NCBI RefSeq assembly: GCF_027595985.1
Contig: NC_073307.1
Coordinates: 15,643,127-15,707,126, forward strand
DNA: 64,000 nucleotides
Direction: 5' to 3'
Source: Sorex araneus
Lineage: Eukaryota; Chordata; Mammalia; Eulipotyphla; Soricidae
Below the pieces are notes generated by a model. The model was given only the letters and a program-made list of their open reading frames with translations, was not told the origin of the DNA and did not search any database. The translations under genes were made by a program, and so were the position numbers. The stretch's first letter is position 1; the number at the start of each line of letters is the position of its first letter. This document shows positions 6,704-64,000 of this stretch, piece after piece.

Positions 6704-7262
6704 TCATCATCATCATCATCCCGTTGATCATCGAATTTCTCAAGTGGTCTCAGTAATGTCTTCATTCGTCCTAGCCCTGAGATTTTAGAAGCCTCTCTTT
6801 ACTCATCCTTCCCAACAATGCCTCATTGGAGGCTCTTTCAGAGTCAGAGGAATGAGACCCATCATTGTTACTGGTTTTCACATATTAATACACCATGGGG
6901 ACCTTGCCAGGCTCTCCCATATGGGCAGGAAACTCTCGGTAGCTTGCCAGGTTCTCCTAGAGAGAGAAATAGGCTATAAGATGTTTTCGGGAGCTTGGTT
7001 TTAAGTCTCTGGATGTTGGCCATTGGTGGGATTACAGGCACCAGGGGCAGTCCCTGGGTGTGACCGCCTAGCTACTAGAAAATGGGAAATCTGGGTGGAA
7101 GAGGCCTACTTCCAATCCGAGCAGGCTTGGAGGTCTCAGCCCCGGGTCCCACACACCTTGGTTCCTTTGCCGGTACCTTCATGCATGAGGCTTGTCCGAA
7201 CATGTGGAGAGGGGCCTTGAGCATGGCTGTGGCTAGGCTCCGGAGGTCTTCGGCTGCGAATC
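6704..7262 (-). mobile_element. SOR-C retroposon with (ATG)n tail, antisense
   Basis: Begins with CATCATCATCATCATCCCGTTGATC, here split as a CAT run then CCCGTTGATCATCGAATTTC, and runs through GGGACCTTGCCAGGCTCTCCC, CCTGGGTGTGACCGCCTAGC and GGGCCTTGAGCATGGCTGTG. A second copy with the same order is at 25988-26618. Read on its own strand, the element ends in CGATGATCAACGGGATGATG and repeats of ATG rather than poly-A. Part of its tail resembles SOR-B. No intact coding frame was recognised. Probably a non-autonomous element moved by a non-L1 LINE. Confidence 0.8.
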
Positions 7263-11480: not shown

Positions 11481-13706
11481 AGGGATATTATGCTCATCCA
11501 TATGCATAGACTGAGAGGGAGAGAAAGCGCTACCTCTGACGAGGATGACAAGTGGATCATGGTCAGATTTACCACATATTACCCCCAGGCTGATATTTGC
11601 AGGATGTGCTTCTGGTCTGGTCATGATTATATTCCATGATCCCTAAGGACTCCCAGTGAAAGATATGCCCCAATTCTTGGACTGATATTCAAGATTCATC
11701 ATACTGCAGCTCCAATATGCTTTTCCAGCTTTCTCTCTCACCAACCCCCCTGGGATCTCTGCTGTTTGGGGAACACCATCTGTTCATTTACCATTTCATG
11801 CATCTACATACATAATATTTGTTAAGCACCTACTATATGCTTTCCAGTCTTTGTTCATTTCATGACCACTCTGCTGAATGCCATCACCCCTGTAAGTACA
11901 TAAAAACCCAGCACATTCCTTACAGCCCAGGGTAAACACCATATTTTCTAAGATGCCCTCATTCGTCTTTTCCCCATGCAGTTCAGAATGATTTATTCCC
12001 TCGATCTCTCTTCAAAGGACTTGATTCATTCCTCTTTTGAGGTAGCATTATTTTTGACCTTAGGTTAATCTTATATATGCACATACTTATGTGTGCTATT
12101 GAAAGCTAAATTCTTTAAGGGCTTGGGCCTCCTACTATAGAGCCAGCCAGTTATAATAGCACACAGAACACGCATCCAATAACTGCTTGAGAAATGGATG
12201 AATAACAAACTGAATTGACTTCAATGTTCAGTTTCTCCTCCCTTGTCACTGTGACAGGCTTTTCTATATGGCATGTTTGTATTCGTAAAACGTTTTCTGA
12301 ACCTTTTGTGTTATTTGATTTTTGTAATGATATTCTGAGCTGGGTAGCATCTCAATTTAAAAAAAATGAAGAAACCAAATCTCAGATAGGTCAGATAACT
12401 TTTTGGCTAGACCGTGACCCGGACATTAATTGAATTCAGATCTTTTGAGTCTTGAGTATTTTGGCCACGAATCTTAGCAATTCAAACCAGATAAATGTGA
12501 AAACTGCACTGATTAATTAATGGCCCCGAGAGGACCGTGAGTCTGGTCCTAGTCGTCATCCTTTAGATGGTGCCTCGATGAGACCCACAGAACTCGGATG
12601 TGTCCAGGAGTCGCTTGGTTCAGTGGGACTTCGGTAAACAGAGTGTGGATGGAAGTGTGATAGTGTCAGCCCTTTGGATTTGTCTGCACGGAAGGCTCCC
12701 TCTTGGATACCAGCTGACATGCCTGAAGCAGTCCAGGCCACGCGGAGGGACGCCAAGAGCTGAACTGAGATGCTTTAGTCTGAAGCCCAGCTGCGTCTCA
12801 GCATCTACCCAGCACCAACTGCCCGCGTGAGCGAGCATCCTACATGCTCCAGCCTCCGGATGACAGAAATCCCAGCTACAGAAACACGAGGGAGAATCAA
12901 CAGCTGTCATTTAAAAGTCATTAAGTAACACTGCTCGAAATAAAATTTGACAAAACCATGTACTTGGATTTAATGAATATCAGCAGTATGGAGAAAGGGA
13001 AAAGCCATTTCGTATGAGAGCAGCTGGATCGTTCATGAGAGGCACCAGGCCTAGCCTTGACCAAACTCTGCGGCCCCACAAGGTGGCGGGTTCCTACGCC
13101 TCCTACCAAGACTCCATGGCTCAGGGGGAAGCATGTTCAAAGAAGTGTTTAGGAAATTGTGCAAAACAAGGAAGTTGTAATGGTCAAAACCTGGTGGGGA
13201 CCACAGGAAGCCTGCATGCCTCCTCCTGCATGGACACAGTGCATGCCCCTTACCTCATGGAAGTGGGGGGTTGTCAACACAAACAAGTCCAAATCTTATT
13301 CTCTCATCTTGAAGATGCCACAAGAATGAAAAGGCCCTTTCCAGGCTCAAGGCTCATCTTCTGTCAGGCTAGAAGCCCCATCTCTTCAGTTTTTCACTGG
13401 GTCTCTCTCTCTCTCTCTCACTCTTTTCCCCTTAGTGGCGATGGCCCTCAAGATGGAGAGGAGTACTTGAGTCTGTGTGTTTGCAGGGGACTGACCTGGG
13501 GGAAAATGGAAGTTGGGTTTCTGGGGACAATGAGGAAATCCTCCCTGAGCTCTCTCCTCAGCTCTTAGCACTCTTCTGGGTTGAGATTTAGGTTCAGGTA
13601 GAATCCAAATGAACTTGGTTTCAGACACACACACTCCAGTCACACATGGTCTTTACTAATCTGACTGACTGGGCAACCAAGTAGCTGAGGACCTTCTCTA
13701 GAGGTA
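11481..13706. other. Unique intergenic sequence
   Basis: No repeat family or gene was recognised in about 2.2 kb. An open frame of 184 codons at 13014-13568 has no recognisable domain and includes a CT run, so it was not called. Confidence 0.4.
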
Positions 13707-13954
13707 GCACTGTAGCACTGTCGTCCCGTTGTTCATTGATTTGCTTGAGCGGGCATCAGTAACGTCTCCATCGTGAGACTCATTGTTACTGTTTTTGGCA
13801 TATAGAATACGCCACTGGTAGCTTGCCAGGCTCTGGCATTCAGGCGGGATACTCTCGGTAGCTTGCCGGGCTCTCTGAGAGGGGCGGAGGAATCGAACAT
13901 GGGTTGGTCGCATGCAAGGCAAACACCCTACCCACTGTGCTATCACTCCAGTCC
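13707..13954 (-). mobile_element. SOR-B SINE, antisense
   Basis: Antisense copy beginning CACTGTAGCACTGTCGTCCC, then GATTTGCTTGAGCGGGCATC, GTTTTTGGCATATAGAATAC and AGCTTGCCGGGCTCTCTGAG. It ends with the tRNA-like head complement CTATCACTCCAGTCC. A short AGAGGTA flanks both sides. The tail is GTGACAGT-like, not poly-A. Confidence 0.9.
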
Positions 13955-14480
13955 AGAGGTATCATAAAATTTTCACAGGGGAAAAAGACTTAGAGGCAGT
14001 GTTGGGACTCAAGCTTCACAAAATACTCTGTCTGATGTGAAGGTATGATGCTTTTGACAATCTGAGAACAATTTTGTGTGCGTGAAATTTCCCAGAGCAT
14101 TTTGCTTCCTCAGGTAAAAAATGGCTTTCACTGCATGAGCAACAGTCATGAATCTACTCCAGAAAAAGACAATCAATTGAAGCCTCTGACAAATCAATAA
14201 GCGTAGGTAGGAGGCCAGATTTTTCGTGTTCAGTGGATCCTTTATTCTCTTCCTTTCCCATCAGTACTAGAGACAGAGCTGTCGGATGTTCATTCTGAGG
14301 GAATTTAGAGTGTACTTACTCAACGGATGATTTCACAGATGAGGAAATAGGCCCAGAGAGCAGACTGGGGCTTGTTTCAGTCATATTGAAATTTTTCTGG
14401 CTAGGATTTGGATTAGAACTTTCATCTTTGACTCTGAGGCAAATCTCTTCCACAGTCCTGATAACTTTAGTGACACTTGT
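13955..14480. other. Unique spacer
   Basis: No gene or repeat family was recognised. Confidence 0.4.
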
Positions 14481-15055: not shown

Positions 15056-15227
15056 GGGGCTGGAGCGATAGCACAGTGGGTAGGGTATTTGCCTTGCATG
15101 CAGTTGACCTGGGTTCTATTTCCAGCATCCCATATGGTCCCCCAACATCACCAGGAAAAATTCCTAAGTGCAGAGCCAGGAGTAACCCCTGTGCATTACC
15201 GGGCGTGACCCAAAAAGAAAAAAAAAA
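15056..15227 (+). mobile_element. SOR-A SINE, sense, with target-site duplication
   Basis: GGGGCTGGAGCGATAGCACA to CGTGACCCAAAAAGAAAAAA. GAAAATTAGTGTTT occurs before and after the element, a 14-base duplication. Near full length and young. Confidence 0.95.
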
Positions 15228-17288: not shown

Positions 17289-17497
17289 CTCACTGTATCA
17301 CTGTCATCCTGTTGTTAGTCGATTTACTTGAGTCAGCACCAGTAATGTCTCTATTACACTCAGCCCTGAGACTTTAGCAGCCTTTCCTTACTCATCTTTC
17401 CCAATGATTGGAGGCTTTTTCAGGGTCAGGGGAATGAGACCTATCATTACTGGTTTTGGCATATCGAATATGCCATGGGTAGTTGCCAGACTCTGCA
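17289..17497 (-). mobile_element. SOR-B/SOR-C intermediate, antisense, truncated
   Basis: It starts like SOR-B (CACTGTATCACTGTCATCC, then GATTTACTTGAGTCAGCACC), then carries SOR-C body text (CCCTGAGACTTTAGCAGCC, then GGAGGCTTTTTCAGGGTCAG), then returns to GTTTTGGCATATCGAATATG. It links the two families. The tRNA-like head is missing. Confidence 0.75.
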
Positions 17498-18010
17498 AGC
17501 TATATACATATAGCTTGCAATATATATGTATATACACACATATACATTGTATATAATATATATAATATACTAATATATACTACTACTACTACTAATATAA
17601 TAATATAATACCAATACTGTCACTGTTACTGTCATCCTTTTGCTCATCGATTTGTTCGAGTGGGCACCAGTAACGTCTCTCATTGAGAGACTTATTGTTA
17701 CTGTTTTTGGCATATCCAATACGCACGGGTAGCTTGCCAGGCTCTGCCTCTCGGGCTCGATACTCTCAGTAGCTTGCAGGGCTCTCCAAGAGGGGCAGAG
17801 GAATCGAACTCTGGTTGGCTGCGTGAAAGGCAAATGCCCAACCGCTGTGCTATCGCTCCAGTTAATACTACTACTACTAATATATAATATACATTACTAA
17901 TACTAATATATAATATATAATATATAGTATACATAAATATATCACACACATATACATACACAGATATAGCTCTGCAATATATATACATACATGTATATAT
18001 ATTCATGTGT
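17498..18010. repeat. TA/TATACA-rich low-complexity DNA with (ACT)n runs
   Basis: Alternating TA, TACATA and TACTAC runs on both sides of the SINE at 17615-17861, probably one AT-rich microsatellite array split by the insertion. TACTACTACTACTAATA occurs before the SINE, and ACTACTACTACTAATA follows it. Confidence 0.85.
17615..17861 (-). mobile_element. SOR-B SINE, antisense
   Basis: From CTGTCACTGTTACTGTCATCC through TTGTTCGAGTGGGCACCAG and AGCTTGCAGGGCTCTCCAAG to CTATCGCTCCAG. Complete head and tail. Inserted in TA-rich low-complexity DNA. Confidence 0.93.
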
Positions 18011-19912: not shown

Positions 19913-20115
19913 CAATGAAAAGATATCACATCATATGGCCTCAAGGGACCCAGCCCCGGCAGCCGACCTCCACAACCCAACTGCCCCCACCGCCACAGGA
20001 CGCTTCCCACATGCTCTGGCCGAACTTGACATACAAGTGAACATATTCTGGACCACATAGCCGTGAAAGCAGCCGCATGACACATCGTAAGACACTCCCT
20101 ACTCATTTTCCATAC

Positions 20116-20348
20116 CTCTTGGAGAGCCCGGCAAGCTACCGAGGATATCCCGCCCGCACGGCAGAGCCTGGCAAGCTACCTGTGACGTATTTGATATGCC
20201 AAAAACAGTAACAATAACGTGCTCTTCACGTTCCTGAAGCAAGCAGATGCCACTGGGCTACACTAACATGCGACAGGGACGAATGGAGACATTACTGGCA
20301 CCCACTTAGGCAATCAATGAGCAATGGGATGACAGTGATACAGTGATG
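20116..20348 (+). mobile_element. SOR-B SINE, sense, 5'-truncated, with RTE-like extension
   Basis: Starts in the body (CTTGGAGAGCCCGGCAAGC), lacks the tRNA-like head, and ends in GATGACAGTGATACAGTG. Between CAGTAACAATAAC and GGAGACATTAC it holds a longer stretch including GTTCCTGAAGCAAGCAG and CACTGGGCTACACTAAC. That stretch is absent from standard SOR-B copies but is present in the LINE fragment at 28935-29187. This copy therefore bridges the SINE and the LINE. Confidence 0.85.
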
Positions 20349-20756: not shown

Positions 20757-21001
20757 AGAAATAGCACAGCGGTTGGGCTTTCGCCTTTCACGTGGCCGAC
20801 CCAAGTTCGATTCCTCCGCCCCTCTCAGAGAGCCCAGCAAGCTACCAAGAGTATTGAGCCCACATGGCAGAGCCTGGCAAGCTACCTGTGATGTATTGGA
20901 TATGCCCAAAACAGTAACAATAAGTCTCTCAATGAGAGACGTTACTGGTGCCCGCTCGAGCAAATCTGATGAGCAATGGGATGACAGTGACAGTGACAGT
21001 T
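20757..21001 (+). mobile_element. SOR-B SINE, sense
   Basis: AATAGCACAGCGGTTGGGC, B box AAGTTCGATTCC, CCTCTCAGAGAGCCCAGCAAG, CAAAACAGTAACAATAAG, and the tail GACAGTGACAGTGACAG. The very start of the head is missing. Near full length. Confidence 0.92.
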
Positions 21002-25987: not shown

Positions 25988-25991
<4 letters not shown>

Positions 25992-26618
25992 TCATCATCA
26001 TCATCCCGTTGATTGTCAAATTTTTCAGTCGGTCTCAGTAAACATCTCCATTCGTCCAAGCCCTGAGATTTTAGAAGCCTCTCCCTACTCATCCTTCCAA
26101 CGATGCCTTACTGGAGGCTCTTTCAGGGTCAGAGGAATGCGACCCAGCTTGTTACTGATTTTTGCATATTAATACACCATGGGGACCTTGCCAGGCTCTC
26201 CCATGTGGGCAGGAAACTCCCAGTAGTTTGCCAGGTTCTCCCAAAGGGAAAAGTAGGCTATAAGATATCCAGGAGCTGGGTTTTAAGTCTCTGGATGCTG
26301 GCAGTTGACAGGATTACACGGCGCCGGGGCAGTCCCTGGGTGTGACCGCCTAGCTACTGGGAAATGGGAAATCTGGGCAGGGGAGGCCCAGTCCCGATCC
26401 GAGCAGCCTTGGATGTCTCAGCTCTGGGTCCCACACACCTGGGTTTCTCTGCCGGGTCCTTAATGCGTGAGGCTCGTCCGAATGTGTGGAGGGGGGCCTT
26501 GAGCATGGCTGTGGCTAGGATCTGGAGGTCCTCAATCGCTGGGAGCTCTGCTGGGGTGGGGAGGGAAGCTGGAGCCCATCCCCTCTGAGGAGGCCCCGGG
26601 GAAGACAGCCAGGCGCAT
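25988..26618 (-). mobile_element. SOR-C retroposon with (ATG)n tail, antisense
   Basis: Second copy, parallel to 6704-7262 over its whole length, and longer at its 5' end (to GGAAGACAGCCAGGCGCATG near 26620). Inserted in the TA run of an older repeat. The tail on its own strand is ATGATGATG. Confidence 0.82.
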
Positions 26619-28044: not shown

Positions 28045-28928
28045 ATTTTAAATATTTTTTAGTTTATTTTTGACATTAAAAAATTAATTTTTATTATCAT
28101 TTAGGTAAAGTGGCTATGATAGTATTAACGTTTATGTACAATGCCACTGTGTACAGTAGCCAGTCTTAAGAGTATCGATATACAAATTTACTGTCTTCCA
28201 CCACCTAAGTGCCCAGGGCCCACCACCATTCTTTCTTGATCACCTCAATTACAGCTTTTCACACACTTCATTTGGTAATCTGAAGTTTTGTAATCCAAAA
28301 TCAAGAGTTTATCATCATTTGATACTGTCTATTCCCTATTTTTTTGTTCTTCTCTATGCCACAGGTGAGTGAGATCACCTAGGATTGTCCTTCTCCCTCT
28401 GACTTATCTTGCTTAAATTGGCATAATGTTCTCCATTTCAGCCCATGTTGCAGTGAACTGCATGATTTCATCTTTTCTTATAACTGCATAGTATTTCTGT
28501 GTGTGTGTGTGTATACCACAACTTGGATTATTTCCATATTCTGGCTGTTATACTAAAATGTTGTGATGAACATAGTGTACATGTATCTTTCAAATAAAAT
28601 GTTTTTGTGTTTGGGCGGTAGGTGCAAAGTAGTGGAATCAAGTCATCTGAAAGCTTAATTCTTATTTTTTGAGGAATCTCCATATTCTTTTCCATAGAGG
28701 TTGAGTCAGACAGCATCCCCGCCAACAGTGAATGAGGGTAACTTACTGTTCTCTTTGAACAGAATTTAAGACACCAAATTTAAGAATTTAAGGAATTTAA
28801 GAAACCAAATTCCTGCTATTGCTGGTTATTTTCAGTCTTTTTGATATGTGCCATTCTCACTGGTGTGAGATATCTCTTTGTTATTTTTAGTTGCATTTGC
28901 CTGATGGTAAGTGCTGATGAACACTTTT
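28045..28928 (-). mobile_element. L1 ORF2 end and 3' UTR, antisense
   Basis: TATCATTTAGGTAAAGTGGC, CAGCCCATGTTGCAGTGAAC, TATAACTGCATAGTATTTC, AATCTCCATATTCTTTTCC and GTTGCATTTGCCTGATGG are the antisense of common L1 3' text. It breaks at CTGATGAACACTT and resumes at 29587, so a later insertion has split it. Confidence 0.8.
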
Positions 28929-28934
28929 TTTTTA

Positions 28935-29187
28935 ATGGGCCAGACACGTAATGCGATTTGGACATGACCACTGGACTAGAGCCATTACTGACTGGATTCC
29001 ATGGGATGTCAAAAGAACGCCTGGCCGCCCACCTATGAGATGGTCAGACTTCTTTGTCAAGACCCTGAACGAATGGTTTAAGGCACTTTGTGTTCCTGGA
29101 GTGAGCAGACACCATTGGGTTACACTAGCACGTGACAGGGACAAATGGAGACGTTATGACAAATGATACAAGTGATACAAGTGATTT
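28935..29187 (+). mobile_element. Non-L1 LINE 3' end, RTE-like ORF C-terminus fragment
   Basis: The frame at 28951-29166 is open for 71 codons and reads [16 protein letters not shown] near its middle, with DKWRR near its end. A G-R-P-x-x-R-W motif close to the C-terminus is typical of the reverse-transcriptase proteins of RTE-like and related LINEs. The nucleotide end, CAAATGGAGACGTTATGAC followed by repeats of GATACAAGT, lacks poly-A, which fits RTE-type 3' ends made of short tandem units. Residues upstream, including the RT and endonuclease domains, are absent. Assignment to a clade is by recall. Confidence 0.65.
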
Positions 29188-29586
29188 TTTTTAAATGAGT
29201 CACATGGGGTACAGTTACAGACTTACAAACTTTCGTACTTACATTTCAGTGATACAATGATTGAGTACCCATCCCTTAACCAGTGCCCATTCACCACCAA
29301 TGATCCCGGTATCCCTCCCACCACTCTCACCCCCTACCTCCTACCCCACCCCACCTCTGTGGCAGGACATTCCCTTTTACTGTCTCTCTCTCCTTATGGG
29401 TGTTGTGGTTTGCAATACAGGTATTGAATTGCCATCATTTGGTCTGTAGTCTACTTCCAGCACGTATCTCCCATCTCCCATCCCGAGGGGGCCCTCCAAG
29501 CACCCCATACTTGGTGGTCCCTTCTCTCTCTGAGCTGCATATGAGGCTGGCTTCCAAGCTGTGGAGCAATCCTCCTGGTATTCAGA
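29188..29586 (-). mobile_element. L1-like 3' UTR variant, antisense
   Basis: TTTTTTTAAATGAGTCACATG, GGTACAGTTACAGACTTAC, ACCCATCCCTTAACCAGTG, GGTGTTGTGGTTTGCAATAC and AGCTGCATATGAGGCTGGC. A subfamily also seen at 32075 and 54950. With the RTE-like piece it lies within the split L1, between two copies of GATGAACACTT. Confidence 0.75.
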
Positions 29587-33455: not shown

Positions 33456-33705
33456 GAAGGACTGAAGCGATAGCACAGCAGGTAGGGCGTTTGCCTCGCA
33501 CAAGGCAGACCAGGTTCGATTCCTCTGTCCCTCTCAGAGAGCCCCGCGAGCTACGGAGAGTATCTCGCCCGCAGGGCAGAGACTGGCAAGCTACCCATGG
33601 CATATTCGATATCCCAAAGACAGTAACAACAAGTCTCACTTGGAGACGTTACTGGTGCTCGCTTGAGCAAATGGATGAACAATGGGATGACAGTGCTACA
33701 GTGCT
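33456..33705 (+). mobile_element. SOR-B SINE, sense
   Basis: GGACTGAAGCGATAGCACAGC, B box GGTTCGATTCC, CCTCTCAGAGAGCCCCGC, GACAGTAACAACAAGTCTC, and the tail GGGATGACAGTGCTACAGTG. It is the last repeat before the GRXCR2 promoter region, about 460 bases upstream of the start codon. Confidence 0.93.
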
Positions 33706-39676: not shown

Positions 39677-42600
39677 CTCTCTTTTCCTTTCTTTCATTTT
39701 AGGCATTATTATTTGCAATACAGATGCTGAAAGATTATCATGCATACCCTTTTACCTACTTTCAACACTTAGTTCTTGTCCAGAGTGATTATTTCCAGCT
39801 AGAATTGTCATAATGAACTCTCCTCTATCTTTACTACCCTCCACCCCCCAAACCCTTGTGGTAATTGACGGATTTTTCTTAAAGGAAATTAAATATAGAA
39901 TGAAGCAGTAAATGTGAAAATAAAATGATGCTTTGAATTATGTGTATAGCAGGAAGCTTCACTTTTGTTTTCAACCTTTCAACATTATTATCATTATTAT
40001 AGTTTAGGCAACATGTTTTCAACTGTGTTAGCATTTATGGCTTTGATGCCTAGCATTACTGTATCTCAGTGCTACTGAAGTGTGCAAGACCCTCCACAAA
40101 TGCTCTCGTGTTGCTCCTAGTCCTATTTATTCACTTCACCATCCCTCACCCAGCCCATCCCTCCCAGCTTGGCAATCTTAGTTTTATCTTAATTAAAATT
40201 AGTTAATATAATTAACTTATCTTAATTAATCCTAATCTTAGTTAAATCTTAATCCAAGGTCAAAGGCTTTTTTCCATCATTTAATACTGCCTATTCCTTT
40301 CTTCTGTTTCTCTACCTAAGATGAGGAAAGTCATCGCGTTTCTGTTCTTCTTCCTCTGATTTATTTTGAGTAACGTGATACCCTCCAGTCCTATCCATGT
40401 TGTAGTGAACTTCTAGATTCTGTCTTTCCTAACAGTGTTCACTGCACACATATGGCACAGCCCTTTATTCCAGCCTTAAAATAGGACTGAACATGAAATA
40501 TCACATCAGCTATGAAATGAACATAAAATTTATGTTTTAGTGAGGGCCAAAATTACTTCTGTGTACTTGCTTCTGCATTGTAGGGAATGTATTTACAGGT
40601 TTATTACAAAGATTCAAATAAAAATACTCAATTTTTTGCATAGCCCTAGAATAAGCTAGGAATGAAAATTCTATATTTATGGGGAAAAATTTTTAACTTC
40701 TGGGACATTGCTAAATTAGCCAAGAGGCAAGCAAAGTTTGGAAATAGGATTTCGGGGTCCTGAGTATTAATAGCCACCTTAATAATTGAGAGATAATTCA
40801 AGGTCGCCTAAAAAGTGGTTGGGAAAATAAGAAGGCACTCAGGAGTCTCAGGACTGTATGTATTAACCCCAATATATGCAACTATGTCTGTATTTTAATA
40901 ACTAGTTTGTGTAGGTCAGTCCACTTGCAGATTGGCAAAGAGATTCTGAGAGTCCAGCAGTCCAGTGATTATTCTATATGTCACTGCCGGTGTACAGTGG
41001 CATTTGGATTTAGAGTTCATTGTCTCTAAACTGCCCTAGCTCTGGAAGAAATATGTATTCTTGACCCTAAACATCAGCTTCCTCTCCTTCCCTGCAGCAT
41101 TGAAACACTGCCTGAATTTATTCTGTGGCAAATGGTTAAGTAACTCATGGTAAATCCATACAGGGGAACATTAACAAATAATGATGAGCTAGAAGCATGC
41201 TTGGCAAGGAGATTCTTTTTATACGATACAAAGGAATAAACAAGTTATGGACATATATAACTATAAAATATAAACAATGTATTTGTATATGAGATGCTAG
41301 TATGTATTAATGTAAATAAATATATATAATAGAAATGATGGTCTTTTGTGGGGAGTATATTTATGAATAGTGTTGTGGGGGTGTTAAGAATGTGACTCAA
41401 GAAAATAATTTTGAGTTTAAATCTTAAGCATAGATTCTGGATAACTTGGCAACTTTGGGACTTACTAAATTCCAGTGAGACTCAGCTTCTATCAACCTTA
41501 CATCAAGGTGATGCTTGTAAAATGTGTAGCATGATATTTAACACAGCAAATGCAGTAAATAGGACAAGAGCAATAATCATTCAGTGAATTGCATCTGTTA
41601 TTATTACTATTTTATGTACTAAACGTTTGAAACTCTTAATTTTTTCCATATTCCTTAATATTTAGTAAGCCCTCATTGTGCACGCAGCAGTGCTGTGCAA
41701 TGTGATAGCAAGAGAATTTCTTTTGTCAGCTTTGTTGAATTTCCATCAATGAGCTCAACTTTGATTATGCTGAGGTCAACTTTGGTGGGTTCCCATTAAT
41801 GGGAAAAGCAAGTTAGTCTTCATGGGCTTTAGAGAGACCAAACTAACCAGGGAATGAATCGTAGCTAACGGGATGGAATATTCTAGATGGTCCAAATTTG
41901 TCCTTTCCTATCTTCCGGGATGTTGCAGATTCTGTGGGCTGGTATTTGGTGGGGAATCATCATGTTAATTCTCCTTCTCTCTAGTCCCCACCTATTATAG
42001 ACTTTGGAAAGATAATCATCTACACGAATAACTTGAAGATCATTCGAACCTCGATGGACAAAAGGGACTTCACGAGGAAAATTCTCCAGAAGGAAGAGGA
42101 GGCTGAGGAAGAGTCTCTGGTGAGCAGAGAGGAAATCTATGGCATCAACAATCGGAATGATGGGCCTTTGCCAGAGGCGGGGAGCACATTCCCCCCCAAT
42201 CAGTACCCACAGGTGTGTCAGATTTACGTACAGTCTTATTTGGAGCTGGTCCCACAACCCAGTTTCCAAGGAGTCTTTGTCATACCTAAATATGTTTGAA
42301 TTGTACTGTTCAAAACTAAGTACTAGGGGCTGGAGCGATAGAACAGTGGGTAGGGTGTTTGCCTTGCACGTGGCCGACCCGGGTTCGATCCCCAGCATCC
42401 CATATGGTCCCCTGAGCACCGCCAGGAGTAATTCCTGAGTGCAGAGCCAGGAGTAACCACTGTGCATCGCCAGGTGTGACCCAAAAAGCAAAAAAAAAAG
42501 AAACAAAAACCTAAGTACAAACGGAACACTTAAGATGTCTTCATATCTAAGTTGTTAAGGAATTTCAAAATTCATTGTATTTTCACAGTAGCATGTTAGT

Positions 42601-46304: not shown

Positions 46305-48270
46305 GCTGCCACTTATGAGGTCCCTTGGTCACAGGCACCATGGCCACCTTTCCCATTCAGTAGTCCAGCTCCTTCTCACAAGAACTGTGAGGTTGTTGTT
46401 CGTTCCTGAACCTGTGGAAATGAAGACCTAAAGAAGTGGAGTTAGTGGACAGAAGTGATTAGAGTCAGTAGCCAAACCCAGGTCTATCTAAGCAGCAACC
46501 TCGTGATCATAGCAACTCTGCTAAGGCTTTGGATTGGTACTGGTTACCATGTGCATGACCAAGTAAGCTTGAATATGAAATAAAACCTATGGTTCCTGAT
46601 CGGGCACAGTGTATTCTCAGAAGTACAAAGGTGGCCGTTTCCCTGACTGTCTTGGGGCAGAGGAGCTCAGCCACAGCCAAATGTGGGTGTTGAGGACTGA
46701 GGCTTCACAGCAAGGTATAGATGTGAAATCGCATTGACAGGGAATCTATGATAGGCTTGGGAATAGAGCGTGGCCTTTCCATATACTCTCTTCCACCCAC
46801 TCGGGGGTGTGGGGTCAACATTATTACTTGCATTACACAAGCCCAGACACTGGACTTTAGAGCTGTGATGAGGATTTTTCAAGGTGCACGATTCATGAGA
46901 GAAGCAGACTGACTCTGAAGCACGGGACTCTGTTTTTTAGGGGACAGTGAGGTTGGGGGTCACACCCAGTGATGCATTCAGGAACCGCTCCCAGGGGGAG
47001 TGATACGGGGATGATACGGGATGCCGAGGATTGAACTTATGTCGACCATTTGCGAGGGAAGTGCCCTACCCAATCAGTACTATCGACCTGGTTCACATGA
47101 AGCTCTTGATCCTTGGGCTCGACTTCAGTTGTTTGAGAGAATAAAGGAACGCAGTAATTCAGTACTAAGCTGTAAAAAATTGCAACATGGGTCTATTCAG
47201 CCCCTCAGTCTCTTAATCACACAAAACTGCCTCGAGGGCCCACTACTGGACAACAGGGAAGGACATTGCACATAAACATCAGGGGCATGAGCTCTGAACT
47301 CTGCTCAATGGAGTCCAAACCCTCCTCCTCTTCTTCCAAGTGGTGCAAATTACTGTCCTTGGTGCCTCGGTCTCCCCTCTCCAACAGAGGGGTGATATCC
47401 TCTCCCACTGGGATGTTCTTGAGCACTGCAAGTACTTGATCAAGTAGCTACAATTTCTGTTTCTCTGACCAGTTTCCACCCTGGCAATTCTATAACTTGG
47501 CTGACTCTCTGCTCCACCCCCATCCCCAGTGTGCGTCTAATTCTGTCTAATTCTGCTCCAGTCTTTGTGGCAATCTGGTTCTATACACACATTGTCACTT
47601 TCACTGTCATCCCATTGCTCATCGATTTGTTTGAGCGGGCACCAGTAATGTGTCTCATTGTGAGACTTATTGTTACTGTTTTTGGCATATCCAATATGCC
47701 ACGGGTAGCTTGCCAGGCTCTGCCGTGCAGACTCCATACTCTTGGTAGCTTGCCGGGCTCTCCGAGAGGGGCAGAGGAATTAAATACCGTTCAGCTGCAT
47801 GAAAGGTGAACTCCCTACCGCTGTACTATCGCTCCAGCCCCTACAGTTCCTCTGTTCTGTGCAGCTGATACACACATATTTATTTTTAATACATGTACAC
47901 ATTTATTATTTATCATAGGCGCCCCCTCTGACGGTGTCAGGGATTAAACTCAGGGCCTCATACATGCTAAGCATGTGCTCTATAACTTGGCTGACTCTCT
48001 GCCCCAGCCCACCCCCCGTGTTATTTTGACCCCTGGGTGAACAATGGACTTGAACTGCTGTAACACGACCTGCTCTGTGTCTTGCAGGAAGGGGAGCTTC
48101 CTGAGGATAACTGTTTCCACTGCCGAGGTTCGGGCAGTGCCACCTGCTCTCTGTGCCACGGCAGCAAGTTCTCGATGCTGGCCAACAGGTTTAAGGAGTC
48201 CTACCGAGCCCTGAGGTGCCCTGCCTGCAACGAGAATGGTCTCCAGCCTTGCCAGATTTGCAAGCAATAG
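34167..48270 (+). CDS. GRXCR2: GRXCR2 gene, coding span: join(34167..34502, 41985..42212, 48088..48270)
   Basis: Glutaredoxin and cysteine rich domain containing 2. The three exons give 112 + 76 + 60 = 248 residues, which equals the length I recall for mammalian GRXCR2. Both introns are phase 0, with sizes of 7482 and 5875 bases. The N-terminal half is basic then acidic (MEDPEKK, KVRFKI, SYSGRVLKQVFEDGQE). The middle holds the diverged glutaredoxin-like segment (IIDFGKIIIYTNNLKIIR) and an acidic run (EEEAEEES). The C-terminus is a four-pair CxxC domain. In mammals the protein lies at the base of hair-cell stereocilia, is needed for the location of taperin, and its loss causes deafness (DFNB101 in humans). 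No frameshift or premature stop is seen, so the gene looks intact. Confidence 0.96.
36308..36470 (+). mobile_element. Diverged SINE, sense, in intron 1
   Basis: GGGGCCAGAACAATGGCAGG, CTTGTCTTGTATGCGGCAG, GTTTGATCTCTAGCACCCC and GAACCAGGAGTGATCCC keep the SINE order with strong divergence. Confidence 0.75.
36540..37065 (+). mobile_element. Old L1 3' UTR, sense, in intron 1
   Basis: GAATATTATTCAGTCTTAGA, GACAAGTGAAATAAGCCAC, GATTCCACGTATATAAAG, TAGAATAATGGTTGTCAGGG and GCATTTTACCACAATCAAAGC are typical of an old mammalian L1 3' end. It is more diverged from the shrew L1 family than the other copies. Confidence 0.75.
37071..37240 (+). mobile_element. Diverged SINE, sense, in intron 1
   Basis: GGGCTTGAGAGATAGTGCAGG, GGTTTGATCTCTGGTACC, CATATGGTCCCCAGAGCACC and GAGCACAGAGCCAGGAGTAAG. 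Inserted directly after the L1 tail. Confidence 0.8.
38726..38905 (+). mobile_element. Diverged SINE, sense, in intron 1
   Basis: GGGCCAGCGAGACACTAGAG, GGCATTTGCCTTGTACGCG, GGTTTGATTCTGGCACCCC, GAGCACAGAACCAGGAGC and GTGTGGCCCAAAAGCAAAAC. Confidence 0.8.
39440..39860 (-). mobile_element. L1 3' UTR, antisense, with CT run, in intron 1
   Basis: CTGAATCACCATGAGAG, ACACCCATCCTTCCACCAC, a CT run at about 39637-39681, GGCATTATTATTTGCAATAC and CCAGAGTGATTATTTCCAGC follow the family order. A short ACAAACAATATTTTAA unit is doubled at 39496-39530. Confidence 0.8.
39985..40490 (-). mobile_element. L1-like 3' region, antisense, in intron 1
   Basis: ATTATTATAGTTTAGGCAAC, CAAGACCCTCCACAAATGC, ACTGCCTATTCCTTTCTTC, CCTCTGATTTATTTTGAG and CCATGTTGTAGTGAACTTC parallel the piece at 28045-28500. 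Confidence 0.7.
41985..42212 (+). CDS. GRXCR2: GRXCR2 coding exon 2 (residues 113-188)
   Basis: The acceptor is a good pyrimidine tract ending CTCTCTAG (41984), and the donor is CAG then GTGTGT. The exon begins SPPIIDFGKIIIYTNN and continues KIIRTSMDKRDF, KILQKEEEAEEES, ending NQYPQ. It is 228 bases, a multiple of three. It carries the glutaredoxin-like core, which in this family does not have the classical active-site CxxC, so redox catalysis is not evident. The region 151-185 is the least similar to what I remember of other mammals. Confidence 0.96.
42326..42509 (+). mobile_element. SOR-A SINE, sense, in intron 2 near exon 2
   Basis: GGGGCTGGAGCGATAGAACA, B box GGGTTCGATCCC, through GGTGTGACCCAAAAAGC and an A-rich tail. 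AAAACTAAGTACTA before and AAAACCTAAGTACA after are an imperfect duplication. A young copy, close to the exon 2 donor. Confidence 0.95.
42893..43100 (+). mobile_element. Diverged SINE with (AAC)n tail, sense, in intron 2
   Basis: GGGCTAGAAAGATAGTACAGC, GGATGCTTGCCTTGCATC, GGTGTGGCCCAAAGCC, then a tail including about nine AAC units at 43068-43096. Confidence 0.8.
43585..43790 (+). mobile_element. Diverged SINE, sense, in intron 2
   Basis: GGGACTCTGAGTTATAGCACA, GGGCACTTGCCTTGCACATG, GGGTTCTATCCCCAGGACCC, and a tail rich in ACCCAAACAAACAAAAAA. Confidence 0.85.
45050..45560 (-). mobile_element. L1 3' UTR, antisense, in intron 2
   Basis: TTTATTTTTTAAAAATTG tail, TAACTGTGAGATATATAG, GGGTTTCAGTCATATAATG, GGGCATTATGTCTTGCAATA, AGAGTGATTATTTCCAACTA and GCTTGGATATTAGTCTC match the family in full order. 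Confidence 0.82.
45870..46215. repeat. Unclassified AT-rich dispersed repeat, uninterrupted copy
   Basis: AAAGCAGTTCACAATTTTTG, CAAACACCAATCCCACCACC, TTTCACCCAGGAGCCATTAAG, a short TA run, then TTCCCCCAAAGATTGGTTGCC. It is the most complete copy of the family also found at 25650 and 54672, and it shows where those are interrupted. Confidence 0.75.
46271..46304. repeat. (AAT)n microsatellite
   Basis: About 11 ATA units in intron 2. Confidence 0.95.
46925..47095 (-). mobile_element. Diverged SINE, antisense, in intron 2
   Basis: GGGGGTCACACCCAGTGATGC, CATTCAGGAACCGCTCCC, GGATTGAACTTATGTCGACC and CAGTACTATCGACCTGG follow the antisense SINE order with many changes. A GATACGGGGAT/GATACGGGAT doublet lies inside. 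Confidence 0.75.
47592..47841 (-). mobile_element. SOR-B SINE, antisense, in intron 2
   Basis: TTGTCACTTTCACTGTCATC, GATTTGTTTGAGCGGGCACC, GTTTTTGGCATATCCAATATG, GCTTGCCGGGCTCTCCGAG and CTATCGCTCCAGCCCC. Full length, with TTAAATACC in place of the B box. Confidence 0.94.
47915..48010 (-). mobile_element. Diverged SINE fragment, antisense, next to exon 3
   Basis: GTGTCAGGGATTAAACTCAG, GGCCTCATACATGCTAAGC and CTGCCCCAGCCC resemble the B-box and head complement of an older SINE. It ends about 77 bases before exon 3. Confidence 0.6.
48088..48270 (+). CDS. GRXCR2: GRXCR2 coding exon 3 (residues 189-248), cysteine-rich domain
   Basis: The acceptor is GTGTCTTGCAG (48087), and the stop is TAG at 48268-48270. 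It encodes four CxxC pairs: C197/C200, C208/C211, C232/C235 and C243/C246, with G-rich turns such as CHGSKFSM and CPACNENG. The pattern is like the zinc-binding cysteine-rich domain of DnaJ-type proteins and of GRXCR1. All eight cysteines are present, so metal binding is plausible. Confidence 0.97.
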   Translation, partial: EGELPEDNCFHCRGSGSATCSLCHGSKFSMLANRFKESYRALRCPACNENGLQPCQICKQ

Positions 48271-60046: not shown

Positions 60047-60174
60047 TTGGCAAGCTACCCGTGGTGTATTTGATATGCCAAAAACAGTAACAAGTCTCGC
60101 AATGGAGACGTTACTGGCACCCGCTAGAGCAAATCGATGAGCAATGGGATGACAGTGATATAGTGATACAGTGG
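60047..60174 (+). mobile_element. SOR-B SINE, sense, 5'-truncated
   Basis: Starts at TTGGCAAGCTACCCGTGGTG in the body, then ATATGCCAAAAACAGTAAC, GGAGACGTTACTGGCACCC and a GATATAGTGATACAGTG tail. Confidence 0.92.
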
Positions 60175-62084: not shown

Positions 62085-63115
62085 TTTATACATTGAATTG
62101 TGTCTTCCGGCTAGTGTTGAAGTTCCAATCCCCAGTCTCTGTAATTTCGACTTCATTCAGAAAGAAGATTTTAACAGATGGCCAAATTCGGATGATACAT
62201 TACGTTTTGCTAGGGCTGCTGTAAGAAATCTTCCACAAGAAGTGACCAGTGGGGCTGGAGTGATAGCACAGAGGGTAGGGTGTTTGCCTTGCACGCAGCC
62301 AACCCTGGTTTGATTCCTAGCATCACATATGGTCCCCTGAGCACCGCCAGGAGTAATTCCTGAGTGCATGAGCCAGGAGTAACCCCTGTGCATCGCCAGG
62401 TGTGACCCAAAAAAAAAAAAAAAAAAGTGACCAGAGATGGCTTAATTCACAGACAGGCAGACAGGGATTTCCTCATAGTCCAGGAGGGGGTCTAAAATCC
62501 AGCAGTAATTAAAAAACAAACAAACTTTTTATAATGAAGCCTAACTCCTCACCTTGCAGATAGCAGATGGCTGTCTTCTTCCTCGGTCTTCACAGGGACC
62601 TCCCACTTTGCATGCCTCTGTGCTGATGTCCTCTTTTTATGAGGAAACCAGTCACCAGACACTGGAACCCATCCTCAAGACCTTGTTTTACCTTAATTAC
62701 CCCTTCAAAGTTCTGCCTACTAACGTGTCAGATTCTGTGACTGTGATGGAGGAATTGAGGATTAGGACATTACTGGGTGACTTCCAAGGGGGCCACGCTT
62801 TAGTCCCTATCTGGACACTATGTGGGGGTCTTCATTTCACCGGACTGGTGTCCTTATAGCCAGTCCTGTGAGACAGGAGACAAGGAAGTTTGAACACAGG
62901 GAAAGACTGTGAAGACACAGGGAAAACATCGTCCAGAAGCCAGGAGAGGCGCTGGAGCACTCTCTCCGACAGCTCTCAGAAGGATCAATCCTGTCTGTGC
63001 CTTGAGTTTGAACATCTGGCTTCCAAACTGATCAGGCCATATATTTGTGGGATGAAGTCTCTGTTGTTTAAGACATTTAGTGTGAGGCACGTTCTTATGC
63101 CCTGGAAAATAAAAT
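62085..63115. repeat. Ancient mammalian repeat, two copies in opposite orientation, nested
   Basis: Sense text GAATTGTGTCTTCC and GTTGAAGTTCCAATCCCC (62093-62145) is followed by antisense text of what looks like the same family: TGCTAGGGCTGCTGTAAG at 62208, GGCTGTCTTCTTCCTC at 62569 and TTACCTTAATTACCCC at 62690. Sense text then returns: GACTGGTGTCCTTATAG at 62843, GAAGACACAGGGAAAAC at 62911 and CTGTTGTTTAAGACATT at 63061. It ends with GGAAAATAAAATAATC. I recognise the phrases from a common eutherian repeat but do not name it. Confidence 0.6.
62250..62426 (+). mobile_element. SOR-A SINE, sense, with target-site duplication
   Basis: GGGGCTGGAGTGATAGCACAG to GGTGTGACCC and a run of 18 A. AAGTGACCAG occurs before and after. 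Inserted in the older repeat. Confidence 0.97.
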
Positions 63116-63800: not shown

Positions 63801-64000
63801 TGGGGTTGGAGTGATAGCACAGCGGGTAGGGTGTTTGCACAAAGTCGACCTGGGTTGATTCCTTCATCCCTCTTGGAGAGCCCAGCAAGCTACAAACAGT
63901 ATCTTGCCCGCAAGGCGGAACCTGGCAGCTACCCGTGGCGTATTCGATATGCAAAAGACAGTAACAAGTCTCACAATGGAGACGTTACTGGTGCCTGCTC
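63801..64000 (+). mobile_element. SOR-B SINE, sense, cut by the window end
   Basis: GGGGTTGGAGTGATAGCACAG, CCTCTTGGAGAGCCCAGCAAG, GCGTATTCGATATGC and GGAGACGTTACTGGTGCC. The tail lies beyond the window. The B box is reduced (GGGTTGATTCC). Confidence 0.93.

Follow-up and report, generated by a model that had tools for sequence, protein, structure and literature searches.

SINE-like repeats bearing pieces of both ends of a probable RTE-clade LINE in the shrew Sorex araneus

The window analysed here, a stretch of 64,000 bases from the genome of Sorex araneus, contains the end of one LINE together with a set of repeats related to it. BLAST with RTE-related queries identified 12 places in the window, namely the LINE fragment and 11 SINE-like repeats, which cover 2306 of the 64000 bases when most head sequence is excluded. 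The 5'-UTR consensus of the LINE was matched by all 11 repeats, and its 3'-end consensus by 10 of them, the exception being 25989-26241, where a 3' end is recognised by eye without a BLAST match. Since both the 5' UTR and the 3' end of the LINE are matched, the repeats are bipartite. The places are as follows:

28935..29187, plus strand: 5'-truncated copy of the RTE LINE; end portion of the ORF at 28936-29166, stop codon within the tail, which has two GATACAAGT units; some 36 bases missing close to the end
13704..13955, minus strand: tRNA-headed RTE SINE; candidate target-site duplication of 7 bases
17628..17862, minus strand: tRNA-headed RTE SINE, found by BLAST
20761..20995, plus strand: tRNA-headed RTE SINE, found by BLAST
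33459..33705, plus strand: tRNA-headed RTE SINE, found by BLAST
47602..47840, minus strand: tRNA-headed RTE SINE, found by BLAST
60048..60169, plus strand: 5'-truncated RTE SINE that retains the tRNA-form junction
63803..64000, plus strand: tRNA-headed RTE SINE, running off the end of the window
19938..20348 (start approximate), plus strand: 'long-type' RTE-tailed repeat; truncated head A, RTE 5'-UTR piece at 20147-20217, 130-base RTE 3' end at 20221-20347
6704..7251, minus strand: type C repeat; head, then about 150 bases from the RTE 5' UTR and about 57 from its 3' end
25989..26533, minus strand: type C repeat; head as in 6704..7251, 5'-UTR piece by BLAST, 3' end by eye
17290..17496, minus strand: 5'-truncated type C-like repeat; RTE 5'-UTR piece and 3' end

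We consider it highly likely that 28935-29187 is a dead fragment from the end of an RTE-type LINE, and that the eleven repeats are non-autonomous and live off this LINE.

A preliminary description of the LINE fragment had reported a frame open for 71 codons, a G-R-P-x-x-R-W motif near the C-terminus, and an ending in short tandem units instead of poly-A. The frame is indeed open, but it is longer than reported, 28936-29166 (+) counting 76 codons from stop to stop. It contains GRPPMRW, and two GATACAAGT units, with no poly-A, close 28935-29187. We take the C-terminal motif of this frame to be of the RTE type. Submitted to Pfam as sole query, the 76-aa fragment matched no family. By eye, T8AA is present on either side of 28935-29187 and may represent a target-site duplication at a site of low complexity. 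The fragment is apparently flanked by pieces of other repeats (28820-28935 and 29187-29400), and the left one, 28820-28935, presumably resembles an L1 3' UTR.

The LINE was then characterised across the genome (2.4 Gb, 65 contigs). The search scored 40 of 7027 first-look candidates, and the 39 scored places other than the window copy, the best of these 7027, were 84-91% identical to the query. For comparison we assembled 28 copies: the window copy, seven from the search and 20 of the 32 remaining scored places. In their consensus, the frame runs to an end of the WRPLEQIDEQ-DDK type and the stop codon falls inside the AAGTGATAC tail, which leaves the LINE nearly devoid of 3' UTR. Taken one by one, 9 of the 27 other copies keep the frame up to the ORF end, the rest being broken earlier or frame-shifted. 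Short tandem 3' repeats, not poly-A, end the 28 copies by eye, and 28/28 by a loose pattern count. The 3' ends of these copies, which are best hits, differ from the consensus by 3.2-12.3%.

A frame without any LINE protein match would have spoken against the preliminary description; the Pfam reverse transcriptase family RVT_1 was in fact found upstream of the same C-terminus at two loci, L028 (E 2e-14) and L010 (E 5e-11). L028 also has a weak endonuclease-like match further upstream (Pfam E 0.006, below cut-off), and the reverse transcriptase piece of L010 has R2 and LINE-1 reverse transcriptases as its best solved matches. At both loci the frames are broken into pieces. Judged from its layout, its tail and its C-terminal motif, the LINE probably belongs to the RTE clade.

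At the other end of the element, the 5'-UTR piece was contiguous with the ORF start at 39/39 scored places besides the query (best of 8217 candidates). The part of the 5' UTR next to the ORF, about 195 bases up to the start codon, is common to 28 loci, one of which is L028. Upstream of this shared 5' UTR, LINE copies diverge by eye into four or more kinds of 5' end, all attached at roughly one point (L060-L086), a variety which suggests promoter or leader turnover.

One class of these 5' ends, H1 (13 loci), resembles at its very start an HDV-like self-cleaving ribozyme; the loci are L028 (~673-743), L061, L062, L063, L068, L070, L072, L073, L075, L076, L077, L079 and L084. A candidate H1 fold can be drawn, with a P1 of 7 bp, P3, P4 and the pseudoknot P2, and Rfam HDV-F-prausnitzii matches in 5/13 H1 loci (E 0.0016-0.18, none reaching the gathering score). 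Pairing in the drawn fold amounts to 83% of cells, and to 29-54% in slid versions, but column shuffles attain an equal level; as pairing is not above shuffles, covariation of the ribozyme fold was not counted as support. RTE elements with HDV-like ribozymes at their 5' ends are mentioned in an earlier paper (PMC3774820).

The similarity that first linked the LINE to a SINE was a stretch of about 65 bases that the preliminary description had aligned with a repeat at 20116-20348, then named SOR-B. BLAST over the whole window confirmed it: 29092-29156 and 20230-20294 agree at 53/65 positions, ungapped (E 6e-13), and a 25-base consensus of the shared stretch, with at most 3 mismatches allowed, recovers these two places and no others in the window, and 0 in 100 shuffles. 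As for the repeat itself, its shared 3' end stands, whereas its limits had to be revised: it is a copy of the 'long' form, with a non-tRNA head that extends upstream of 20116. Nor is the shared stretch a SOR-B piece lying in unrelated sequence, as it forms the end of the LINE coding frame in the 28-copy consensus.

The true extent of the similarity was masked by a loss in the window copy. By eye, about 36 bases are missing from it just before the tail, and its BLAST match to the LINE consensus is broken at this segment, into 222 and 21 bases. The segment is ungapped in 24/27 other copies, and the remaining three, L014, L016 and L019, lack 6, 4 and 12 bases of it, respectively. Because of this loss, the shared end, about 130 bases long, is visible over only 65 bases in the window copy, and just half of it could be seen at first reading.

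Consensus comparisons quantified both pieces. The tRNA-headed consensus matches the LINE consensus over 71 bases of 5' UTR at 93% (E 8e-28) and over 63 bases of 3' end at 92% (2e-22); the long form matches it over 71 bases of 5' UTR at 89% and 130 bases of 3' end at 91.5% (2e-48); type C, represented by one copy, does so over 153 bases of 5' UTR at 81% and 57 bases of 3' end at 79%. In the SINE tails the units are ACAGTGAT and CAGTGCTA, at least one base different from the ACAAGTGAT of the LINE. None of the 28 LINE copies has, by eye, exactly the SINE ending, which indicates that the LINE subfamily directly paired with the SINEs is absent from this set. Folding of the shared 3' end was no better than that of shuffles for the three consensus ends (z 0.51, 0.09 and -1.06), and this shuffle-level folding gives no support to a conserved hairpin there as the recognition signal.

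Upstream of the RTE-derived parts, the heads of the repeats differ. In the tRNA form, the first 66 bases agree at 91% with an A-tailed SINE consensus (built from six window copies), and the match stops there; no match was found between the A-tailed consensus and the RTE part of the SINE. The six A-tailed copies were called tRNA-Ala by ARAGORN. BLAST with one copy of this A-tailed tRNA-Ala-like SINE gave 25 places in the window, five of which are merely heads of RTE SINEs. Examples of the A-tailed SINE lie at 15057-15226, 42327-42497 and 62252-62423. We assume this A-tailed window repeat to be the published SOR, itself A-tailed. SOR has been described as a class T- shrew SINE. Taken as the A-tailed repeat, SOR shares its 66-base tRNA-like head with the RTE SINE and differs in its ending, an A-rich tail; we thus take it to be distinct from the 20116 repeat that had received the name SOR-B.

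The long form, examined at 30 loci, carries head A in 13, head B in 12 and neither in 5. Head B contains TATATAAG shortly before the RTE part. Type C has a head of its own: the two longer window copies match each other over 550 bases at 86%, head included, and a 411-base type C query is matched over nearly its full length at 39 other scored genome places, at 88-91%. Heads on RTE tails can be seen, for instance, at L030 and L037 (long form) and at 6950-7251 in the window (type C). Comparison of pieces of heads A, B and C showed no match among them, nor with the A-tailed SINE or the sequence upstream in the 28 LINE 5' loci, and none of the three is a recognised Pol III head. Three repeat designs are present: the tRNA-headed one, which is the commonest, the long form with heads A or B, and type C.

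The abundance of the tRNA form was estimated from its exact 32-base junction between 5' UTR and 3' end, which gave 5185 + 5210 = 10,395 genome matches, and 0 for the reversed control. Seventeen tRNA-form copies were 4.8-15.4% divergent from their own consensus, ages drawn from these figures being biased since the copies dated were best hits or window copies. At such divergence most copies would be expected to lack the exact 32-mer, so that a true number in the order of 10^5 is probable; the seven copies in the 64-kb window give a similar order. Searching the genome with the SINE consensus itself gave 0 places, a result not read as absence, for the search skips very common words. Target-site duplications of at least 8 bases flank 7/17 copies, versus 17/272 mismatched pairs; they are not found at this length in the other 10/17, and 2 of the 7 positives are low-complexity (L097 and L098).

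That the repeats carry pieces of both LINE ends makes it very likely that they were copied by the LINE enzyme. In layout they begin with a head, which is either a tRNA-like Pol III promoter, as carried by the A-tailed SINE too, or one of three or more other heads, and continue with a piece of LINE 5' UTR and the last 60-130 LINE bases, followed by tandem units. The LINE reverse transcriptase would recognise the shared 3' end, its own last codons included, and target-primed reverse transcription would then start on the SINE RNA. The smallest shared end, about 60 bases in the tRNA form and in type C, is mostly coding sequence. These comparisons of sequence support the earlier suggestion that an RTE-like LINE may move the repeats, which moreover carry its 5' UTR, unseen in the preliminary description. 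We regard it as very likely, on the same basis, that parallel SINE families parasitise the shrew RTE.

The bipartite layout may also be explained by chance amplification of LINE derivatives with internal deletions, the heads being neighbouring repeats into which they had inserted. A 5' UTR joined to a 3' end is what an internal deletion leaves, and the lack of a recognised Pol III head in A, B and C agrees with such an origin. However, tRNA head, core and tail form one unit of about 250 bases at 39/39 other scored places (best of 6658 candidates), and the duplications found in 7/17 copies lie outside the whole unit; for the tRNA form, a shared head with duplications beyond it largely refutes this origin. 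For type C, the 550-base match between the two window copies takes in the head, and the 39 other places match nearly the whole 411-base query. We therefore judge this explanation unlikely.

Even less probable is the opposite direction, in which the LINE would have derived its 5' UTR from a SINE. The LINE does seem to exchange its 5' ends, of which at least four were distinguished by eye, and a whole SINE core is found, also by eye, inside 3/28 loci (L064, L065 and L081). Against this, the ORF-adjoining part common to the 28 loci, about 195 bases, is longer than the corresponding part of the tRNA-headed SINE, and the 3' piece is LINE coding sequence. Finally, the shared end could come from one older repeat near which both elements had inserted, a possibility that we hold to be very remote: no supporting point was found for it, the shared end is the LINE ORF end in the 28-copy consensus and in 9/27 other copies, and the SINEs contain two distinct LINE pieces whose order is constant. 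Parasitism of the shrew RTE by SINE families thus remains the preferred reading.

A shrew RTE is already known. RTE1_Sar was found in Sorex araneus and nine nematode species by Dunemann and Wasmuth 2019 (PMC6542046); reads from hedgehog, solenodon and mole gave no hits to it, it is the single RTE found common to nematodes and a mammal, the shrew, and a nematode origin is suggested. The word 'SINE' is absent from the main text of that paper. Our LINE, likewise from the shrew, is by inference very probably RTE1_Sar. If so, one transfer from parasite to host would explain a visible share of a mammalian genome, and the oldest RTE-tailed SINEs could possibly date it. RTE-tailed SINEs would also provide lineage-specific insertion markers, and two SINE families with one tRNA-like head, one ending in an A-tail and the other in an RTE tail, would offer a paired test of RNA recognition by RTE. 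We favour, with less assurance than for the parasitism itself, a broader reading in which a nematode-derived LINE in shrews founded at least three SINE-like designs with at least four heads and some 10^5 copies, one design sharing its promoter head with an A-tailed SINE presumably moved by L1. This would make them a mammalian counterpart of the bird AviRTE SINEs.

The bird SINEs mobilised by AviRTE, namely ManaSINE1, GymnSINE and MeloSINE (PMC4844689), have a bipartite tail from 5' and 3' parts of the RTE and several heads per tail, as do the shrew repeats. AviRTE moved between vertebrates and nematodes, as reported for RTE1_Sar. The RTE and the host are different, and the ~40-base 3' UTR of AviRTE contrasts with the mostly coding shared end in shrew. 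Among mammals, RTE-clade partners are listed in Table 1 of PMC3747384 for Bov-tA, Bov-A2, Ped-2, RTESINE1 and Afro SINEs; that paper contains none of the terms shrew, insectivor, Sorex, Eulipotyphla and Soricidae. Ped-2 of the springhare joins an ID-SINE head to a BovB tail (same table), and is similar in taking its head from an existing SINE and its tail from an RTE-clade LINE. Bov-tA and Bov-A2 of ruminants are similar in that tRNA-headed and 5'-end-headed SINEs depend on one RTE-clade LINE. The partner of Ped-2 is BovB and that of Bov-tA and Bov-A2 is Bov-B, unlike the RTE here. Bov-B itself was probably acquired horizontally, by transfer from snakes, according to PMC13295347. We found no report of an RTE-mobilised shrew SINE in the openly accessible literature covered, and these repeats are possibly catalogued already in subscription papers or Repbase. 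The shrew pair of SINE and RTE is a further member beside the known Bov-tA/Bov-A2, Ped-2 and AviRTE SINEs.
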